Below, in pieces: positions 15,128 to 62,360 of a stretch of 64,000 nt of DNA. The notes under the pieces were generated by a model, which made no database searches, had not been told where the DNA came from, and was given only the letters and a program-made list of their open reading frames with translations. The stretch is taken from NCBI GenBank assembly GCA_903859705.1, contig CAIONQ010000029.1, positions 1 through 64,000 of the forward strand, read 5' to 3'. How positions within the stretch are numbered: the stretch's first letter is position 1; every line of letters begins with the position of its first letter. The DNA is from an uncultured Chthonomonas sp. (GTDB lineage Bacteria; Armatimonadota; Chthonomonadetes; Chthonomonadales; Chthonomonadaceae). The translations under genes and the position numbers were made by a program.

Positions 15128-15829
15128 TTACTGCAGATCAAACAGTAGAAACTCGGCACCTTCCTGAGCCTGCAGGGTTATGCTTCCAGTTCCTTCAACC
15201 GAGGCTCCATCGCCGGGGCTCAGGCTGTACCCTTCCAACTGAACTTTGCCTTTGATTACATGCACCCAGATGCCACGGCCTGCGGCGGCGGCATGGGTGA
15301 TGGCGGAGCCGGCATCCAGCCTGCCGAAGTACACATCTGCATCTGCCCGAATCCCAATCGATTCTTGCCGGCCATCGCCAGATGCAAGCAGTGTAAGGCT
15401 GTTGGGCTGCGTGCTTGCTGCCATGGCGCGCTCTGCGTACCGTGGTTCGCCGCCAACTACATTCGGCAGGATCCATATCTGTAAGAAGTGAACGGGTGCG
15501 CTATTGGATGGGTTGTACTCGCTATGCAACACTCCGCTGCCTGCGCTCATGTACTGCAGATCACCTGCCTGAATAACGCGCCCATTGCCCATGGAGTCGT
15601 TATGCTCCAACTGGCCATCTATAACATAACTCAGGATTTCGGCATCTCTATGCCCATGCCTGCCAAAGCCCTGGCCGGGTTCCACATGGTCATCATTCAG
15701 AACGCGTAACGCATGAAACTGCATGTGTGCCGCATCCTGATACTCGCCAAAAGAGAATGTATGTTTACTGTTTAGCCAGCCCCGTTGTGTGGTTCCGCGC
15801 TCGTCCGATTGTCTGATGGTAACTTTCAT
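15128..15829 (-). CDS. Pirin family protein, YhaK-like
   Basis: A 233-aa bicupin. It opens MKVTIRQSDERG and carries GFGRHGHRDAEILSYV, the pirin metal-binding region, followed by GDLQYMSAGSGVLHSE. It belongs to the shorter YhaK-like pirins, in contrast to the 299-aa pirin at 2.9-3.8 kb. ATG 15829 is set by GGGAGG seven bases upstream. An AraC-type regulator precedes it by 56 bases on the same strand, so regulation by or with that gene is plausible. The enzymatic activity (quercetinase-like or none) is not determined. Confidence 0.9.
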   Translation of the reverse strand: MKVTIRQSDERGTTQRGWLNSKHTFSFGEYQDAAHMQFHALRVLNDDHVEPGQGFGRHGHRDAEILSYVIDGQLEHNDSMGNGRVIQAGDLQYMSAGSGVLHSEYNPSNSAPVHFLQIWILPNVVGGEPRYAERAMAASTQPNSLTLLASGDGRQESIGIRADADVYFGRLDAGSAITHAAAAGRGIWVHVIKGKVQLEGYSLSPGDGASVEGTGSITLQAQEGAEFLLFDLQ

Positions 15830-53176: not shown

Positions 53177-54982
53177 TTACTCGGGATATTTAACGTGTAA
53201 TAACTCGGCACGGTACCTGCCTTCGTGCTGAAGCATTCTATCCAACCGAACATGTTGCTCTACTTCAAGTTGTGCGGTGTTCTGAACTGCTGTATAGCAG
53301 AATGCCGTCACACACACTGCTGCCACTGCCGCCAGCCCACAGGTGCCTCGTACAACGGTATATCCGGAACCTTTTCCACTTAATAGCCTGGCTGCGCCCG
53401 CCAGGCACAGCACCAACAGAGGTGCAATTAAGGAACCGACCAGCGTTGCACCTTGCACAAAGGCTGGAGAGTTGCGGAACTGACTAAACCCACTCTCCGT
53501 GCTGCTGGTGGAATTGCCAGACAACATTGCCATTGTATTCGTTAGCTTAACCAGGGCCCTGTCAATATTGGTCATCTCTACGCCCCAGTGAGCGCCGAGA
53601 GTAACAATAATTGCCACCGTTACAAAAATACCGAGGGTCATGCTACTTGCCGCCGATTTGTCGGCACGTAAGCCAACAAGAACGGCGCAAGTAAGTGCCA
53701 GTAGTAACAGCCACACGCCGTTTGCAAGCCCCAGGGATGCCACTATCCAATGCCGATTGATATCGCGCATTTTTTGGCCTCCAAAGGGATCGTGGAGGTT
53801 AGCAGCGGTACTTTCACTAAGACTTCGATATGAATAGCCGGCCTGCACTTCATTCTCTGCTGCTTTAGCCGCTTCTGGATGCCCAAGAGAGACAGCAAAT
53901 TTGCGGTAAACTTCGAGCCGAACTGTGTTTTTCTGAAAGGTATCCAGCTTCTGCATAGCAAGATTATCCAGGCCAGCATAGAGGACTTTATCTGGATGAG
54001 AGTAAGCCAGATTAGAGATTGAAATTCCTACCAACCCGCCAATTAGACTGCGAGAGTGCTGGCGCATATTTCGGCCAAGTGCCAGCGTATCTTGCCTGAT
54101 TTGCAGGCCTTCCAGCCTCTTGCCCGATGTCTCTTTTTGTGCCGCGATCATGTCTGCAAGCCGCCCAACGGCACGCAAGCGTGCAAAGTGTGGGAAGAGT
54201 ATAGAGGCAAGCACCATGGTGCGGGCAAGGCTATTGGCACCAGGTTTGCGGCTCATGCAGCGCCACCGAGATTCGGCCTCAGCCCAACTGTAATCGTCCC
54301 AATGCTTGCATTGTGCTGCAATATGCAGCACTTTCAGCGCTTCCGCATCGTTATAGTTACAAAACAGGCCCATGGCTTTCATTGCCGGGAAGTAGCCGTT
54401 CTCCGGGTCACGTTCCGCTCCCTGTTCTGCTGCATCCAAAAATGCCTGCAGCGCGTGGGGCTCTGGCAGCGTTTTCAAACCACTGCGTGCAAGGGGGCTG
54501 ACTCTTGCGGTAGTCTCCCCAAAGTAAGCCATTACCTCATTATCTCTTCGCACGCCTATATCACCCATGCTGGCGAACCGCAGTTCATGAGCACGTATCT
54601 CTTTCAGCTTCTCCGGGTAGTTAAGCACAAGGTCTTCAAAGGGGCGTCGCCTATCAGATTCGCTGGCGTTTCCCGTTTGTAAACGTGTTTCAACGGCATA
54701 TGTTAGCGCGGCATCATAGTCGTGCACACCAACCGGGAGCGGCAATGGGGCAACTGCTGAGGCTCCAGAGGAGTAGTTTACGGCCATTTGCTGCACGGCC
54801 GCAGAAAGCCCTTTGCCCTGGCCCGTAAGTATTGCGGCTTCCTGCTTCATAACCGGTGCCGTATCCGCGCGAGTCGCCAGCAGCCCAACAATGGCTGCAG
54901 AAACCCCGATAAGCACCAGTGCGGCACCATACCATAGGCCAATGCGCCCGCCGGGTTTATCGCCAGAGCCGTTGCTTGTCAT
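53177..54982 (-). CDS. Tandem paralog 1: membrane protein with large extracytoplasmic or cytoplasmic helical domain
   Basis: A 601-aa protein of no recognised family. One TM segment lies at about 16-37 (GAALVLIGVSAAIVGLLAT), then a helical soluble domain of about 380 residues (RRPFEDLVLNYPEKLKEIR, YFPAMKAMGLFCNYNDAEAL, RLEGLQIRQDTLALGRNMR). Four or so TM segments follow from about 420. The protein ends HEGRYRAELLHVKYPE. ATG 54982 follows GGAGA. The helical part, with its AxxAxx rows, could be TPR-like. Close copy at 55195-56994; distant copy at 57137-58777. Confidence 0.75.
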   Translation of the reverse strand: MTSNGSGDKPGGRIGLWYGAALVLIGVSAAIVGLLATRADTAPVMKQEAAILTGQGKGLSAAVQQMAVNYSSGASAVAPLPLPVGVHDYDAALTYAVETRLQTGNASESDRRRPFEDLVLNYPEKLKEIRAHELRFASMGDIGVRRDNEVMAYFGETTARVSPLARSGLKTLPEPHALQAFLDAAEQGAERDPENGYFPAMKAMGLFCNYNDAEALKVLHIAAQCKHWDDYSWAEAESRWRCMSRKPGANSLARTMVLASILFPHFARLRAVGRLADMIAAQKETSGKRLEGLQIRQDTLALGRNMRQHSRSLIGGLVGISISNLAYSHPDKVLYAGLDNLAMQKLDTFQKNTVRLEVYRKFAVSLGHPEAAKAAENEVQAGYSYRSLSESTAANLHDPFGGQKMRDINRHWIVASLGLANGVWLLLLALTCAVLVGLRADKSAASSMTLGIFVTVAIIVTLGAHWGVEMTNIDRALVKLTNTMAMLSGNSTSSTESGFSQFRNSPAFVQGATLVGSLIAPLLVLCLAGAARLLSGKGSGYTVVRGTCGLAAVAAVCVTAFCYTAVQNTAQLEVEQHVRLDRMLQHEGRYRAELLHVKYPE

Positions 54983-55033
54983 TGAGGTTCTCCAGATGGC
55001 TTTGCTATTAACCACAACCATGTTCCAGGATGA

Positions 55034-55069
55034 ATATCATACGGGTATGTGAGCAACACGGTTGCGCTG
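55034..55069 (-). promoter_or_regulatory. Promoter of paralog 1, duplicated element
   Basis: Reading the minus strand: CAGCGCAACCG, a 12-base unlike spacer, then ACCCGTATGATAT. The same two blocks at the same spacing precede paralog 2. CAACCG and TATGAT would be -35 and -10 with a 17-base gap. Confidence 0.65.
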
Positions 55070-55130
55070 GTTAGGCAACAAGGTAAAAACAAGCGGGTTT
55101 GCCATATTAGCAGCCGCACATAACACAATT

Positions 55131-55163
55131 ATCCCGGCAGGGCCACGCAGCCCTTGCCGGGAT
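55131..55163 (-). terminator. Terminator of paralog 2
   Basis: ATCCCGGCAGGG (55131-55142) pairs with CCCTTGCCGGGAT (55151-55163) with one bulged T. On the minus strand it is followed by AATTGTG. The stem resembles the terminator at 53113-53155 (ATCCCGrCA). Confidence 0.7.
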
Positions 55164-55194
55164 ATTATCGTGTAGTTTTTTGTAAGAACCCGCT

Positions 55195-56994
55195 TTACTC
55201 AGGTAATTTTACATGTGCAAGTTCGGCCCGGTATCTGCCTTCGTTCTGCAGCAATCTGTCCAATCGGTTGTGCTGTTCTGCTTCAAGCCGTGCTGTGTTC
55301 TTAACGGCTGTAAAGCAAAAGGCCATCGTGCATACAGCCAGTATAGCGGCAATCCCCAATGCACCTCGCGCCATAGTATAGCACGATTCCTTGCCACTAA
55401 ACAGCTTTGCAGCCGCTGCTGCGCACAACACCATCAGGGGCCCAATTAACGAGCCAACCAGCATTGATCCCTGAATATATGCTGGCGACTGTCGTAACTG
55501 ATTGAAGCCACTCTCGGAATCACTGTTCGTATTGCTAAATGTCATAGAGTCTGTGAGATTTAGCAGAGCCTTATCTAACTTACTCATCTCCACTCCCCAG
55601 TGGGAGCTCAGCGTAACAATGATTGCAACTGCAGCAAGTATCCCAATTGCCATAGCACTCGCTGCCGATTTGTCTGCACGCAAACCAACCAGCGTGGCGC
55701 ATGCAATCGCCAGCACTATCAGCCAGCCTGCGTTAGCAAGGCTGAGCGATGCCACCATCCAGCTACGGTTGATTTCGCGGAGTTTTTCTCCACCAAAAGG
55801 ATCTTGAACGGATCCATCAGCGCGTTCGCTGATGCTGCGGTAAGTATTGCCCGCCTGTATTTCGTGTTCCGCTGCAGTCACCGCCTCGGGGTGCCCCAGG
55901 GATTTAGCAAATTTATTGTAAACTTCCAGTTTAACATTGGATTTCTGTTTTGAATCCAGCTTTTCAAATGCAAGCTTATCGAGGCCACCATACAGAGTTT
56001 TATCTGGATGAGCGAAGGCCAGGCTAGAAATAGCGATTCCCACCAGCCCGCCAATTAGATTGCGAGAATGCAAGCGCATATTGCGGCCAAGTGCCAGTGT
56101 ATCTTGCCTTATTTGCAGGCCTTCCAGCCTCTTGCCAGAGGTCTCTTTTTGGGCAGCAATCATATCCGTGAGCCGTGCAATTGAGCGAAGGCGTGCGAAG
56201 TGCGGGAAGAGTATGGAGGAAAGCACCATGGTTCGGGCAAGGCTGTTTGCTCCGGGCTTGCGGCTCAGGCTACGCCACCGGGCTTCGGCCTCATCCCAGC
56301 TGTAGTCATCCCAGTTTTTGCATTGTGCGGCATTGTGCAGCACTTTTAACGCCTCGCCATCCTGATAATTGCTAAAAAGAGCCATTGCCTTCATAGCGGG
56401 AAAATAGGCGTTTTCACGGTCTAGCTCTGCGCCCTGGTCGCAAGCCTCCAGGAACGCCTGCAGTGCATGCGGTTCAGGCAGCGTTTTCAGTCCGCTCTTA
56501 GCGAGGGGGCTCGGCCTCATGGTAGATTCGCCGAAGTAAGCCATCACATCATTGTCTCGCTTCACGCCAATATCACCCATGGTAGCAAAGCGCATCTCGT
56601 GCGCGCGTATCTCTTTCATCTTCTCGGGGTAATTAAGAGCAAGGTCATCAAACGGATGTCGCCTATCGGATTCGCTGGCGTTTCCGCTGCGCAAGCGGGC
56701 ATCTATCGCGTTGGATAGTGCCACATCATAGTTGTGCACACCCACGGGTAATAGTTCTGGAGTTACTGGTGGTGCCCCTGCAGTGAAGGTAGACTCGGTT
56801 TCCTGTACAGCAGCAGAGAGCCCCTTACTTTGCCCGGTGAGAATTGCAGCTTCCTGCTTCATAACTTGCGCCGTATCTGCCCTAAAAGCCAGGAGCGCAA
56901 CAATACCTACCGCACCTACAATAAGTGCCAGCGAAGCGCCATACCAGGGGCCCAGGCGCCCGCCGGGCTTATTGCCCGAGCTATTGTTTTTCAA
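55195..56994 (-). CDS. Tandem paralog 2: membrane protein with helical domain
   Basis: A 599-aa close copy of the preceding gene: same N-terminal TM (SLALIVGAVGIVALLAFRA), same motifs (RLEGLQIRQDTLALGRNMR, HALQAFLEACDQG, YFPAMKAMALF), same C-terminal TM cluster and end (NEGRYRAELAHVKLPE). The start aligning with paralog 1's ATG is TTG 56994, behind the same GGAGAACCTCA stretch, so the start codon changed after duplication. Family and function unknown. The identical promoter block argues for shared regulation. Confidence 0.75.
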   Translation of the reverse strand: MKNNSSGNKPGGRLGPWYGASLALIVGAVGIVALLAFRADTAQVMKQEAAILTGQSKGLSAAVQETESTFTAGAPPVTPELLPVGVHNYDVALSNAIDARLRSGNASESDRRHPFDDLALNYPEKMKEIRAHEMRFATMGDIGVKRDNDVMAYFGESTMRPSPLAKSGLKTLPEPHALQAFLEACDQGAELDRENAYFPAMKAMALFSNYQDGEALKVLHNAAQCKNWDDYSWDEAEARWRSLSRKPGANSLARTMVLSSILFPHFARLRSIARLTDMIAAQKETSGKRLEGLQIRQDTLALGRNMRLHSRNLIGGLVGIAISSLAFAHPDKTLYGGLDKLAFEKLDSKQKSNVKLEVYNKFAKSLGHPEAVTAAEHEIQAGNTYRSISERADGSVQDPFGGEKLREINRSWMVASLSLANAGWLIVLAIACATLVGLRADKSAASAMAIGILAAVAIIVTLSSHWGVEMSKLDKALLNLTDSMTFSNTNSDSESGFNQLRQSPAYIQGSMLVGSLIGPLMVLCAAAAAKLFSGKESCYTMARGALGIAAILAVCTMAFCFTAVKNTARLEAEQHNRLDRLLQNEGRYRAELAHVKLPE

Positions 56995-57045
56995 TGAGGT
57001 TCTCCATGTGGCACCGCAAGTAACCACATCCCAAATCCACGATGG

Positions 57046-57081
57046 ATATCATACGGGTGCAGTTCAGGTGCGGTTGCGCTG
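57046..57081 (-). promoter_or_regulatory. Promoter of paralog 2, duplicated element
   Basis: Minus-strand CAGCGCAACCG, 12 unlike bases, then ACCCGTATGATAT, matching the element at 55034-55069 exactly in both blocks and spacing. It lies about 50 bases upstream of TTG 56994. Confidence 0.65.
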
Positions 57082-57136
57082 ATTGGCCAATGCCCTAAAC
57101 GTAATGGGAATCCACTTTCCAAAAATCGCAGATCGA

Positions 57137-58777
57137 TTACTGTGGAAATTGCAGATGTACTCGTTCGGCCAGATAACGCCCTTCGTGCGCGCAGATGCCG
57201 TCTTCAACCGTGTTACGGCTGGCCTCCTGGCGGGCCACTGCCCGTGTGGTAGTTACCAGGCCAATAACAGCAACAAGCATGCCCGTAGTTGCGACAATAC
57301 ACAGCGTTGGTAGTGCAGAAGCCCTGCGTCTTGTTGTCAACCAGACACCGGCACTCAGTGCTATGGCAACACCTGGCCCAATGAGGGCGCCAAATGCAGA
57401 CATCCAGCGCACATCGTACGTCTGTTCCAGTACATCCGTTTCCCCCACGGTACCAAGGGTGTGTATCATCGCGGCAAGTGTGCTGCACCAATGCGAACTA
57501 ACTGCAGTAATCACAGCCGCTGTTGCCAGAACCGATAGAATTACTCCCATTGCAGCACGCATATTCATGCGCCAAAACAGCACCGCACTCGCTGCTATTC
57601 CAAGCATTCCGAGCCATACAGCGTTTCCAAGCCACAGGGTATTGGCAAACCTGCGTTTCAGGCACAAAATAGCTGCGCCTCTATCCAGTTCATTCGTACC
57701 CGCTGATACAGCAAGGTCCCGAAGATGAAGCGTTTGCTGGCACACTGTAATTTCATGGCGGGCAGCCTCTGCCAGCGTAGGCAAATTGGCTTGCGCTGCC
57801 CGGCTTATAAAATCGTTGGTGTTAGCTGTCAGCCGTTCCGTGCTGGAGAGCTCTCTCCAGCGGTCTTTCGTCATCCCGGCAAACGGAATACCCGCTATGT
57901 CTGCAACGGCGCTCAGCTCAATTGTGGCCCCAACATCCGTGCCAACAATCCCTCTGCTCTGCATGCGCATCAGCCTGCCCACAGCCAGAAGGTCGGCGCG
58001 TATACGCATCCCACCAGCCATATCTCCTATGGCCTCCGCCTTTTGAGCAGTGTTTCTGGCGGCGATACAAAGGTACCGAATTCCCGCCATGTGTGTTACC
58101 ACAACCTGATGGCGCAGCGCTTCACGGGTAAAAACATCTGCCCCACCCAACTTAACCAGTGTGTGCCACATCGCTTCCGAGGGTGCCCATACGTAGTCGT
58201 TCCATTCCGGCAGCAATGCGGCTGCATGCAGCATAGAAAGTGCGCTGCCGGTTTGTGCCGTATGCTCAAGCAGCATGGCGTGCATTACTGGGAAAAACGC
58301 ATTGTTTCGGTCGCCCTGTGTGCCCAGTTCGCACGCTGCTAACAGCCTCTGCACAATAGGGTAATTTGCCGGATCTGTAAAATGGATGCCGGCAGATAAG
58401 TGTATCAACTCGGCTGCGAGTATTGAGGCAGAGTGTGCTGGGTGGGCGCGCCGTAATACATCAAACAGGTCCAATGCGGCGGTGGGTGTTGTCTCATCGG
58501 ATCTAACTCGGGAAACGGTGTGTGCAAACTCTATATCAAAGTCTTGCAGTTGTTGATGAGAATCAACAGGGATAGAAGGAACCTGAGTTTCACAATACTG
58601 GTAAATCAGCTTCGCTTCCATATTTAATGCAGCCGTTCTGCCCGCAAGGTGCCCTGCACTAATTCTAAGAGTGCTGGCTGTGCCTGGCCAAATAGCAAGC
58701 AAAACAAGTGCGATCATACTTACCGCCGATACGATAAGCGATGCAACAACCAGTCTCTTACCGGATCCATCAATCAT
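57137..58777 (-). CDS. Tandem paralog 3: diverged membrane protein
   Basis: A 546-aa distant relative of the two downstream copies. One TM is at about 8-28 (VVASLIVSAVSMIALVLLAIW), then a helical soluble domain with matching landmarks (AFFPVMHAMLLEHTAQTGSALSMLHAAALL, MRIRADLLAVGRLMRMQSRG in shorter form). TM segments follow from about 385, ending HEGRYLAERVHLQFPQ. ATG 58777 is preferred to ATG 58840, because the longer N-terminus would be encoded by the regulatory box at 58814-58831. No SD is visible for either. It is divergent from the response regulator gene. Confidence 0.7.
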   Translation of the reverse strand: MIDGSGKRLVVASLIVSAVSMIALVLLAIWPGTASTLRISAGHLAGRTAALNMEAKLIYQYCETQVPSIPVDSHQQLQDFDIEFAHTVSRVRSDETTPTAALDLFDVLRRAHPAHSASILAAELIHLSAGIHFTDPANYPIVQRLLAACELGTQGDRNNAFFPVMHAMLLEHTAQTGSALSMLHAAALLPEWNDYVWAPSEAMWHTLVKLGGADVFTREALRHQVVVTHMAGIRYLCIAARNTAQKAEAIGDMAGGMRIRADLLAVGRLMRMQSRGIVGTDVGATIELSAVADIAGIPFAGMTKDRWRELSSTERLTANTNDFISRAAQANLPTLAEAARHEITVCQQTLHLRDLAVSAGTNELDRGAAILCLKRRFANTLWLGNAVWLGMLGIAASAVLFWRMNMRAAMGVILSVLATAAVITAVSSHWCSTLAAMIHTLGTVGETDVLEQTYDVRWMSAFGALIGPGVAIALSAGVWLTTRRRASALPTLCIVATTGMLVAVIGLVTTTRAVARQEASRNTVEDGICAHEGRYLAERVHLQFPQ

Positions 58778-58813
58778 GTTCAACGCGCAAACCGTCCCAG
58801 CTATTGGCCCCGT

Positions 58814-58852
58814 CAGGATTTCGTCATATCCACGGGGCATAATGGATATAAT
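58814..58852 (+). promoter_or_regulatory. Regulatory box and promoter of the two-component operon
   Basis: CAGGATTTCGTCATATCC at 58814-58831 recurs with one change before the CpxP/Spy-like gene (61235-61252). A -10-like CATAAT starts 24 bases after the start of the box in this copy and TACAAT starts 24 bases after it in the other. The box covers the -35 position, as expected for a response-regulator site at an activated promoter. A second TATAAT is at 58847-58852. Confidence 0.6.
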
Positions 58853-58882
58853 GCGGCGTAATATTGAGCCAGGAGTGCAGCC

Positions 58883-59587
58883 ATCAAGATCTTGCTTGTA
58901 GAAGATGAAGAGGACATTGCAGAAGCGATAGCGCGTGGTTTAACGCGGGATCGTTACACTGTACAGGTTACCGATACAGGCGAGGAGGCCATAGAGCTTC
59001 TTCGCAATGATGTATTTCAGCTTGTAATCCTCGATGTCATGCTTCCCGGCATGGATGGGTGCACCGTTTGCGATAGAATTCGGCGGGAAAAACTGCTTAC
59101 TCCCGTTTTGATGCTCACCGCACGGGATACGGTTGCCGATAGAGTTCGCGGTTTGGATTCTGGAGCAGACGACTATCTGGTAAAGCCATTCGATTATTCC
59201 GAGCTGCTGGCGCGCGTGCGCGCGCTTTTGCGCCGGGACAAAGTACACCGCCGTACAGAGATCAGCATTGCCGATCTTGTTATAGATACAACTTCTCGCA
59301 CAGTAACGCGCGGAGGCAATCTCATTGCGTTAACCCCTCGCGAGTACTCCGTGCTGGAAACCCTGGCGGCAGAAGAGGGGCGCACCCTTACCCGGGAAAG
59401 GCTGCAGAACACTGTGTGGGCCGGGGAAGAGGTGTTTCCAAACACGGTAGATGTTTGTGTTGGCCATCTGCGCCGAAAGATGGATAAAGGCTACACAATG
59501 CGCCTGGTAAAAACCATTCATGGCGTTGGGTACTGCCTCACTCCAGAACCAGAAGCAGTGCATGAGTTGGATAAGGATCGGTCCTGA
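58883..59587 (+). CDS. OmpR-family response regulator with an apparent ATC start
   Basis: A 234-aa regulator if it starts at ATC 58883. The receiver domain opens (M)KILLVEDEED, with phospho-acceptor D51 in LVILDVMLPGMDG, and Thr and Lys in MLTARD and LVKPFD. The C-terminal winged helix (about 130-225) has LTPREYSVLETLA, VDVCVGHLRRKM and VKTIHGVGYCL. AGGAG at 58871-58875 is seven bases before ATC. An in-frame TGA at 58865 and no ATG/GTG/TTG before TTG 58892 leave ATC as the only well-spaced start, and it restores the usual MKILLVEDE N-terminus. The kinase gene follows one base later. Confidence 0.9.
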   Translation: MKILLVEDEEDIAEAIARGLTRDRYTVQVTDTGEEAIELLRNDVFQLVILDVMLPGMDGCTVCDRIRREKLLTPVLMLTARDTVADRVRGLDSGADDYLVKPFDYSELLARVRALLRRDKVHRRTEISIADLVIDTTSRTVTRGGNLIALTPREYSVLETLAAEEGRTLTRERLQNTVWAGEEVFPNTVDVCVGHLRRKMDKGYTMRLVKTIHGVGYCLTPEPEAVHELDKDRS

Positions 59588-59588
59588 C

Positions 59589-61229
59589 ATGTTGCACCCT
59601 TTCACTCGCCTGCGAGGCTCTGTACGCGCGAAGCTAACCCTATGGAACACCGTAACATTTGCTGCCGTGCTGGCGTGTATCGGCATTGCATTCCGAGTGC
59701 TGGCCCAGGGCTATCTGCTTTCTGGTTTAGATAGGGAGATGCGTGCACATGCGGGCCACGTTCCGGCGGCCAGCAGCCAGATCATGATTACAACCAGCAT
59801 GCCTACGGAAGCCATGGGGCAAGCCATAGGCGGCAATAGCTGGCCGGATTCGGCCACGGGCACCACCGATATTAAAGGACTGAACCTGAAGATGAAAGTG
59901 CTCGAGAAAAAGAGTATTTTCGTAAGCGCAACAGCCCCCAAATCCAGCAGGGTTGAAGTAGTGAAAATGCACGATATGCTGGATGGCGATAGCAGTGGGC
60001 TTTTCCAATCCCGCACCTTTTCGCTGGATGGCACCCCAAAACCCAGTTCTCTTCTTTCTGCATTCAGTAACTCCGTAAGCATGATTCACGTCGAAGGTTC
60101 AGCAAGCGGGGAAACCCTGCATGCGCAGGCTTATCGGCCCTGGGATTCGGAAGGGTTTGCTGAGGCATCTCATGGCGTAGAAACAGTGCGCACGGTGGAA
60201 AGTGAAGGAGAACGGCTGCGAGTGCTCTCTCGCCCACTGCGTGAGGGAGAACAGATTACAGGAGTGAGGCAGGTAGCAACCTCGGTAACTCCCATGGATC
60301 GTGATCTGGCGGGCCTCACGCGTTCTCTGTTTCTCCTGCTGCCCCCGGCTCTCGTAATTGCGCTATTTGCGGGCCTGTTTCTCACCGGCAAAGCACTTAG
60401 CCCGGTTAAAGCCCTCACCCATGCCGCGCGCGAAATTCGGCCAGATCAACTTACCCGGCGGCTGCCGCTAAACGGCACCGATGAGTTTGATGAGTTGGCC
60501 GCAACATTCAACTCGGCTCTTGGCAGGGTTGAGCTGGCGTTTAATGAACGAGAGCGGATGGTGGCGCAACTTCAGCGCTTTACAGGCGATGCATCTCATG
60601 AACTGCGCACACCGCTCACAACCATTAAAGCCAACACCACAGTGGCGCTGGCGGATGCAGTGCCTTCAGAAGAGCATGTGCATGCTCTGAGGAAGATAGA
60701 CAGGGCGGCAGACCGCATGACGGGGCTTGTGGAAGATCTGCTGTTACTGGCCCGGTTTGATGGCCTGAAAGCGCCACTGGATGCACGGCCCATATCTATC
60801 CTGCTGGCTGCCGAGGAGGCCATAGAGATGCTCCCGGAGGCACAGCCCATAATCGATGTCTCTGGTTGTTCTGCAGAAATTCGGATTGCAGGTGAGCATG
60901 GCCACATAGTGCGGCTGTTGCGCAATCTGCTGGAAAACGCACGCAGATTTACGCCAGAGGATGGGCAAATAACCGTGCATGCCCTCCGTCTGGGCTCTCA
61001 GGTAGAGATTCGGGTGGCAGATACAGGCAGCGGCGTTGCACCGGAGCATCTGCCTTATCTGGGCGAGCGGTTATTTCGGATAGATTCGGCCCGTAACCGC
61101 AGCCATGGTGGCGCGGGCCTTGGGCTTGCCATCTGCAGATCCATTGCAGAGCGGCATAACGGCAGCCTGCAGGTTCAAAGTGAGCCCGGCAAAGGCACAA
61201 CAGTTATCGTAACGTTGCCTGCAGCATAG
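59589..61229 (+). CDS. Sensor histidine kinase, partner of the upstream regulator
   Basis: A 546-aa kinase. TM1 lies at about 15-35 and an extracytoplasmic sensor of about 200 residues follows. TM2 (LFLLLPPALVIALFAGLFLTG) lies at about 237-258, then HAMP (LSPVKALTHAAREI). HisKA has H337 in GDASHELRTPLT. HATPase has the N-box NLLENARRF, G1 VADTGSGVAPEHL and G2 HGGAGLGLAIC. Its ATG follows the regulator stop by one base, so translation is probably coupled. The sensor's signal is unknown. The paired CpxP/Spy-like gene downstream suggests envelope stress, perhaps metal or folding. Confidence 0.93.
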   Translation: MLHPFTRLRGSVRAKLTLWNTVTFAAVLACIGIAFRVLAQGYLLSGLDREMRAHAGHVPAASSQIMITTSMPTEAMGQAIGGNSWPDSATGTTDIKGLNLKMKVLEKKSIFVSATAPKSSRVEVVKMHDMLDGDSSGLFQSRTFSLDGTPKPSSLLSAFSNSVSMIHVEGSASGETLHAQAYRPWDSEGFAEASHGVETVRTVESEGERLRVLSRPLREGEQITGVRQVATSVTPMDRDLAGLTRSLFLLLPPALVIALFAGLFLTGKALSPVKALTHAAREIRPDQLTRRLPLNGTDEFDELAATFNSALGRVELAFNERERMVAQLQRFTGDASHELRTPLTTIKANTTVALADAVPSEEHVHALRKIDRAADRMTGLVEDLLLLARFDGLKAPLDARPISILLAAEEAIEMLPEAQPIIDVSGCSAEIRIAGEHGHIVRLLRNLLENARRFTPEDGQITVHALRLGSQVEIRVADTGSGVAPEHLPYLGERLFRIDSARNRSHGGAGLGLAICRSIAERHNGSLQVQSEPGKGTTVIVTLPAA

Positions 61230-61234
61230 GCCGA

Positions 61235-61264
61235 CAGGATTTCGTCAGATCCAGCCGTTACAAT
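61235..61264 (+). promoter_or_regulatory. Regulatory box and promoter of the CpxP/Spy-like gene
   Basis: CAGGATTTCGTCAGATCC at 61235-61252 matches 17 of 18 bases of the box before the response regulator. TACAAT at 61259-61264 is the -10-like hexamer, starting 24 bases from the box start as in the other copy. The box begins six bases after the kinase stop. Confidence 0.6.
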
Positions 61265-61364
61265 ATAACCATCAACAACAGTCACTTCATTCAAATCTGC
61301 CAACTGGCCGATTCTGGGTGTTATCATCGCGGTACACGTTCAAAACAAAGGGGAAATGATCAGT

Positions 61365-62360
61365 ATGCATTCAGCAAGTATCAAACGGGCAATGGGCGCC
61401 GCTTTTGCGGCCATTCTGGTTGCTTCCGCGGGCAGCGCAGTACGCGCTCAGGAAAATGATCCGCCCACAGGTGGCGGCGTTATCATTTTAAAAAGTGGCG
61501 ATGGCCAGAGGGTTATCAATATCGATCCCGGGCAGCTGAAGGATATCTCCGGTGGCATTGTTATGGTGGCAGTAAGCAGCAATGGTGATTTTTCTGCTAT
61601 CACTGGCAACCCGGCAGATATGCCCTTTGGCGGCATGCTTGGCCCGTTCGGTATGGGTGGCGCCCTGGCGGGCTCTGGCAGGGGATTAAACATTGTAGAC
61701 CCCGGCGTAAGCTACATTTTTCAGCTAATTAAGCGATCTGATGTTCGCTCGGAACTCTTCCTGGATCCCAAACAGCGGGAGAAGCTGGAGCAGATGTTTA
61801 CCGAAGAGTCTACTGCGGCTCAGCAACGCGCAAATGCTCTGAAGGATAGTATCAAGAGCGGAGGCGCAAACGCAGGAGCCGCACTTAAGGCTTCCCAGTT
61901 CTTCGGTGCCAATGCCACCGACCGTGAAAAGAAGCTTGCAGAAATCCTTACACCAAAGCAGCTAAAGCGCCTGAAAGAGCTGGATCTTCAGTTCCGTGGC
62001 CCGCTAGCCATGGGTGTTAAGCCTGTTGCCGAAAAAGCAAAGCTCAGCGAAACGGAAGCGCCGGCCGTTGCAGATCTGCTTCAGAAGTACCACGAAGCCG
62101 TGCACAAAGCACTTGGCTTTGAGCAGAAGGTTCAGCGCACAGAAAATGGCAATGGGGGAACCTCCGTTTCTGTAAGCACCAGCGTAAACATAAGCGGCTC
62201 TCAGCAGGAGCTTGAGCAGAAGGCTCAGAAGGCGCATGAAGTGATTGAGGCTGCACGCAAGGCCCTTGGTGCGCAGGCACTCAAATCCATAGCCGCAGAT
62301 CATGCTTCGGAGTGGAAGGGCCTCGCAGGCCAGCGATTTCAGTTTCAGACTCTCAACTAA
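61365..62360 (+). CDS. Exported LTxxQ-containing protein, Spy/CpxP-like
   Basis: A 331-aa exported protein with a signal peptide ending AVRAQ. After a Gly/Asp-rich N-terminal part, the helices RSELFLDPKQREKLEQMF and KLAEILTPKQLKRLKELDLQF hold LDPKQ and LTPKQ motifs, as in Spy/CpxP periplasmic chaperones. A further long Gln/Glu helix ends it. It is longer than Spy/CpxP (about 160 residues). ATG 61365 fits AGGGG better than ATG 61356. Its promoter shares the box seen at the response regulator, making it a likely member and feedback partner of that regulon, as CpxP is of Cpx. Confidence 0.7.
   Translation: MHSASIKRAMGAAFAAILVASAGSAVRAQENDPPTGGGVIILKSGDGQRVINIDPGQLKDISGGIVMVAVSSNGDFSAITGNPADMPFGGMLGPFGMGGALAGSGRGLNIVDPGVSYIFQLIKRSDVRSELFLDPKQREKLEQMFTEESTAAQQRANALKDSIKSGGANAGAALKASQFFGANATDREKKLAEILTPKQLKRLKELDLQFRGPLAMGVKPVAEKAKLSETEAPAVADLLQKYHEAVHKALGFEQKVQRTENGNGGTSVSVSTSVNISGSQQELEQKAQKAHEVIEAARKALGAQALKSIAADHASEWKGLAGQRFQFQTLN

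Follow-up and report, generated by a model that had tools for sequence, protein, structure and literature searches.

A predicted OmpR/PhoB-type operator before a two-component operon and the adjoining Spy/CpxP-like gene in an uncultured Chthonomonas sp.

Two promoters in a 64,000-nt stretch of genomic DNA from an uncultured Chthonomonas sp. (the window) share a tandem box, which we take to be the operator of the OmpR/PhoB-family response regulator encoded there. We put the probability at about 0.88 that the boxes are operators of this regulator, mediating positive autoregulation and activation of a Spy/CpxP-like gene. The box pair, its geometry, the conservation of that geometry in relatives and the identities of the genes are direct observations.

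Results

The box pair is confined to one locus

A pattern search of the window found CAGGATTTCGTCA[T/G]ATCC at 58814 and 61235. In both copies 24 bp separate the start of the box from the start of a -10-like hexamer (CATAAT at 58838, TACAAT at 61259), which confirms the first-pass annotation of this DNA. With up to three mismatches allowed, the window contains these two boxes and one additional three-mismatch site at 15632, where shuffled sequences predict 0.05 per window. The shared stretch is in fact 23 bp long with two mismatches (58810–58832 versus 61231–61253), and the sequences flanking it are dissimilar.

The whole genome (6,244,938 bp) has two exact matches to the box, none with one or two mismatches and nine with three, compared to five three-mismatch sites for a reversed-pattern control. 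As only two copies with up to two mismatches exist genome-wide, the pair is specific to the two-component/Spy-like locus. A mobile or dispersed repeat was likewise ruled out, there being only two copies, and the scan did not show the box at random places, the result that had been named beforehand as refuting a regulatory role. The small set of similar promoters that had also been anticipated consists of the two in the window, with no further ones in the genome. A wider regulon was not seen in the genome with a pattern of half-sites plus -10 either: up to three mismatches it gave seven matches versus five for the control, and below three mismatches only the two window sites.

Both sites are tandem repeats at a fixed distance from the -10

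Each site is a tandem direct repeat with a period of 11 bp, laid out as GTCAGG-atttc-GTCATA (58812–58828) at the regulator operon and GACAGG-atttc-GTCAGA (61233–61249) at the Spy/CpxP-like gene. The location of the box and the choice of -10 in the first-pass annotation thus hold, but its register does not, as the true unit begins 2–4 bp further left. From the start of the second half-site to the -10 there are exactly 15 bp at both promoters. A perfect TATAAT at 58847–58852 is an alternative -10 of the regulator promoter; we prefer CATAAT, as the first reading did, because 28 of 35 relatives have their -10 at 15 bp. An inverted-repeat reading, GGAT-N8-ATCC, was dropped, since the 11-bp direct repeat accounts for both the geometry and the relatives. 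By its layout, the box has the geometry of an OmpR/PhoB-family operator in place of a -35 element. In PhoB-type activated promoters the tandem half-sites overlap the -35 (PMC3348028), and the spacing requirements of such promoters are described as strict (PMC10294691). All features are listed in Table 1.

Table 1. Features of the locus, in window coordinates.
Feature	Position	Strand	Sequence	Remarks
Divergent gene, paralog 3	57137..58777	-		probable start 58777
Predicted operator 1 (regulator operon)	58810..58832	+	CCGTCAGGATTTCGTCATATCCA	half-sites GTCAGG 58812-58817, GTCATA 58823-58828
Box copy 1	58814-58831		CAGGATTTCGTCATATCC	
-10 of regulator operon	58838..58843	+	CATAAT	15 bp from second half-site start, rule of 28/35 relatives
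Shine-Dalgarno of response regulator gene	58871..58875	+	AGGAG	read from sequence
OmpR/PhoB-family response regulator	58883..59587	+		Pfam; start position from relatives
Sensor histidine kinase	59589..61229	+		HAMP, HisKA, HATPase_c (Pfam)
Predicted operator 2 (Spy/CpxP-like gene)	61231..61253	+	CCGACAGGATTTCGTCAGATCCA	half-sites GACAGG 61233-61238, GTCAGA 61244-61249
Box copy 2	61235-61252		CAGGATTTCGTCAGATCC	
-10 of Spy/CpxP-like gene	61259..61264	+	TACAAT	15 bp from second half-site start
Exported helical protein, Spy/CpxP (LTXXQ) type	61356..62360	+		start 61356 or 61365; LTPKQ motif

Genes at the locus

The regulator consists of a receiver domain and a C-terminal winged helix (Pfam Response_reg PF00072, 1.2e-30; Trans_reg_C PF00486, 7e-21). 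Its gene has no ATG, GTG or TTG where nearly all relatives start; the apparent start is an ATC at 58883, 7 bp after the AGGAG, with a TTG at 58892 as the alternative, and the ATC reflects either an unusual initiation codon or an error in the sequence. A PAS domain was not found in the kinase (HAMP-HisKA-HATPase), and the neighbouring genes are not phosphate genes. The second box begins 2 bp past the kinase stop codon and is followed by the Spy/CpxP-like gene. No close orthologue of the regulator that would show these exact boxes conserved was found (best ∼57% identity). Several related two-component pairs are encoded in the same genome; where their promoters show the repeat, the boxes read TTCAT or ATCATC/CTCATC and not GTCA. 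Generic relatives from many phyla, at 39–48% identity, came up in a contig scan with the regulator and served only as an outgroup.

The Spy/CpxP-like protein, which is about twice the usual length, had no PF07813 match above the Pfam cut-off. Homologues of it do match this LTXXQ family, one (L043) at 1.2e-9 and an own-genome paralogue on the same contig at 3.1e-6. The predicted structure is helical, with pLDDT above 90 over much of 111–330. A fold search with this model gave no significant match, and Spy and CpxP were absent from the lists; of the superfamily expected, we noticed only CnrX there (Foldseek E 3.5, not significant; VIA Z 4.6, 96/110 residues). The exported protein appears to be related, though divergently, to the LTXXQ family. 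Some 67 kb further down the contig is a tandem pair of Spy-like paralogues (L143:5119-7148; G000:C29:129-131 kb), and no regulator box was seen before them.

On the other side of the regulator promoter, the divergent gene paralog 3 had been suggested as a further member of the regulon. This is not supported: a direct repeat in tandem has a direction, and in the divergent region no such site with a -10 was seen on the minus strand; repression of paralog 3 by occlusion is possible. The gene belongs to three tandem minus-strand genes at 53177–58777, of which the first two are clearly alike and the third is similar at its start. None of the three had a Pfam match.

The repeat recurs in promoters of related regulators

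We collected the promoters of 55 distinct Armatimonadota relatives of the window regulator. TCA-N8-TCA was present in 35 of them, compared to a mean of 2.5 and a maximum of 7 in 200 rounds of shuffling, and any other TCA spacing from 5 to 23 in at most 7/55; a clear TCA repeat was absent from the remaining 20. Distances to the -10 were taken from the scored best hexamer and then rechecked with the fixed pattern [TC]AnnnT, which lay exactly 15 bp from the second half-site in 28/35 and at any other distance in three or fewer; as related sequences are not independent, such counts are not probabilities. The relatives span many genera and several families, and their consensus is TTCATC-N5-TTCATC-N9-TAtnnT. 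Because the GTCA/GACA half-sites differ from TTCATC, the case for the window rests on the common geometry and core. A search of the literature brought up nothing of relevance on a TTCATC motif of regulators or on a regulator operator in Armatimonadota.

Searching 41 relatives' genomes with the consensus box plus -10 (up to one mismatch) gave ∼42 sites versus ∼5 for the reversed control. These sites are followed by regulator operons and by genes for proteins that are mostly exported or in the membrane, several of them next to the regulator. LTXXQ genes carry the box in six or seven relatives (G027, G002, G018, G020, G010, G008 and G025, the last assigned from coordinates). Their layouts vary: in G027 the LTXXQ gene is divergent from the regulator and has its own box, in G002 box, LTXXQ gene, regulator and kinase follow each other in one direction, and in G008 the boxed LTXXQ gene is divergent. 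The window is therefore one of several arrangements of a regulator–LTXXQ pairing. Other boxed targets (L185, L168, L180, L193, L192, L178) are di-haem oxidoreductases, DUF5666 and EF-hand exported proteins and, both named from their sequences, a HupE-like protein and an efflux adaptor. These non-LTXXQ targets hint that the regulon may extend to further envelope or metal functions.

The closer Spy-like homologues in relatives were considered as box carriers and rejected, as they are mostly without it. ECF-sigma-like promoters precede several Spy-like homologues (L056, L057, L060, L061, L044, L045-L047, L050 and L052), in which TGTAAAC or TGTCACG, ∼15–18 bp and CGTCTA replace the regulator box.

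A candidate specificity residue

When the window regulator is aligned with the sequence of the PhoB helix, its residues T188, V191 and H195 are matched, with H195 at the position of Arg201. In the PhoB–DNA structure Arg201 hydrogen-bonds a half-site guanine, and Thr194 and Val197 contact thymines (PMC3973317). Leu and Met predominate at residue 195 of the 55 Armatimonadota regulators, with Ser, Gln, Phe, Ala or others in some; only the window regulator has His (or Arg), and only its promoter has a G before TCA in both half-sites. The non-Armatimonadota outgroup contains two Arg195 regulators with GTCA/GTCA, two Tyr195 regulators with CTCA/CTCA and one His195 regulator with ATCA/GTCA. Fisher's test on the pooled small residue/base table gave ∼0.001, which we read as a lead, the hypothesis having come from the window itself and the outgroup sites being putative. 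We tentatively suggest, at somewhat below even odds, that within a family of self-activating regulators that spans the phylum and reads TTCATC-N5-TTCATC, this regulator switched its DNA word from TTCATC to GTCA through a Leu/Met to His195 change, with both operators changing in step.

Discussion

The proposal of the first-pass annotation, a binding site of the regulator covering the -35 position at two activated promoters, is supported by the 11-bp tandem geometry and the 15-bp spacing. The same architecture recurs at the regulator promoters of 35/55 relatives and upstream of LTXXQ genes in six or seven, which argues for the proposal as well. Its position in both promoters would also suit a shared -35-type element of an alternative (ECF-like) sigma factor, and TGTAAAC-N15-CGTCTA promoters of ECF-like appearance do occur at Spy-like homologues of some relatives. 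We nevertheless regard a sigma factor as very unlikely: the box is a tandem repeat of 11-bp period, an architecture concentrated at regulator promoters, the -10s are the ordinary CATAAT and TACAAT while the ECF-like promoters elsewhere look quite different, and more than two sites would be expected.

An equally slight chance is given to another regulator, PhoB or a same-genome paralogue, as the owner of the operator, so that the locus would be cross-regulated. The half-sites do resemble a Pho box in their GTCA, period and -35 position, and there are several related two-component pairs in the genome. However, the boxes of those pairs read TTCAT or ATCATC/CTCATC, the GTCA box occurs at one locus only with one copy on the regulator's own operon, and a Pho regulon would have more sites. 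The least probable reading, which we can almost discount, is that the two copies reflect chance or a duplicated promoter fragment with no regulatory role. Only two are known, 2.4 kb apart, yet their likeness is limited to 23 bp with different flanks, shuffles give just 0.05 per window at up to three mismatches, and both copies keep the spacing of the relatives.

On our preferred reading, that the boxes are operators of the window regulator itself, we infer the following circuit, from the signal through phosphorylation-dependent binding to activation and the function of the Spy-like protein. The histidine kinase would sense an envelope signal and phosphorylate the regulator, two molecules of which would bind head-to-tail on half-sites one helical turn apart, replacing the -35. 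The bound regulator would then recruit RNA polymerase to the -10, 15 bp past the start of the second half-site. Operator 1 would drive the regulator–kinase operon, giving positive autoregulation, and operator 2 the Spy/CpxP-like gene, whose exported product may chaperone proteins, bind metal or damp the kinase.

The Pho box of E. coli has an 11-bp period and lies ∼10 bp before the -10. Like the window sites, it is built of tandem GTCA-type half-sites overlapping the -35 (PMC3348028), and it is bound head-to-tail by an OmpR/PhoB regulator, as predicted for the window. Unlike PhoBR, the window kinase has a HAMP domain without PAS, so that it is not PhoR-like, and no phosphate genes adjoin; unlike the Pho regulon, the target is Spy/CpxP-like and the genome has only two sites. 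In P. aeruginosa a CpxR box precedes the LTXXQ-type cpxP adjacent to cpxR (PMC5063474). At the sequence level the window, like several relatives, resembles CpxRA–CpxP of E. coli and P. aeruginosa in having a predicted two-component regulator box before a neighbouring LTXXQ-type gene. The window boxes are GTCA/GACA with an 11-bp period and not the CpxR motif GTAAA-N4-8-GTAAA (PMC5063474), there is no evidence that the pair is orthologous to CpxR/CpxA, and the Spy-like protein, unlike CpxP, falls below Pfam detection. With the Armatimonadota TTCATC-N5-TTCATC promoters the window shares the 11-bp period, the TCA core, the 15 bp to the -10, the predicted autoregulation and LTXXQ or other exported-protein targets; it differs from them in a half-site that begins with G instead of T, and in His instead of Leu/Met/Gln/Ser at the Arg201 position.

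The circuit proposed here is ordinary in kind and, for one deduced from sequence alone, unusually well supported. In a phylum that has been little studied, the locus provides one two-component system with a concrete candidate operator and small regulon, and the rule TTCATC-N5-TTCATC-N9-TAnnnT can predict regulator targets across many uncultured Armatimonadota. If true, the His195/GTCA switch would separate this regulator from the related regulators of the same genome, and the matched change of recognition helix and operator would illustrate, in a compact case from nature, how insulation between related regulators may arise.
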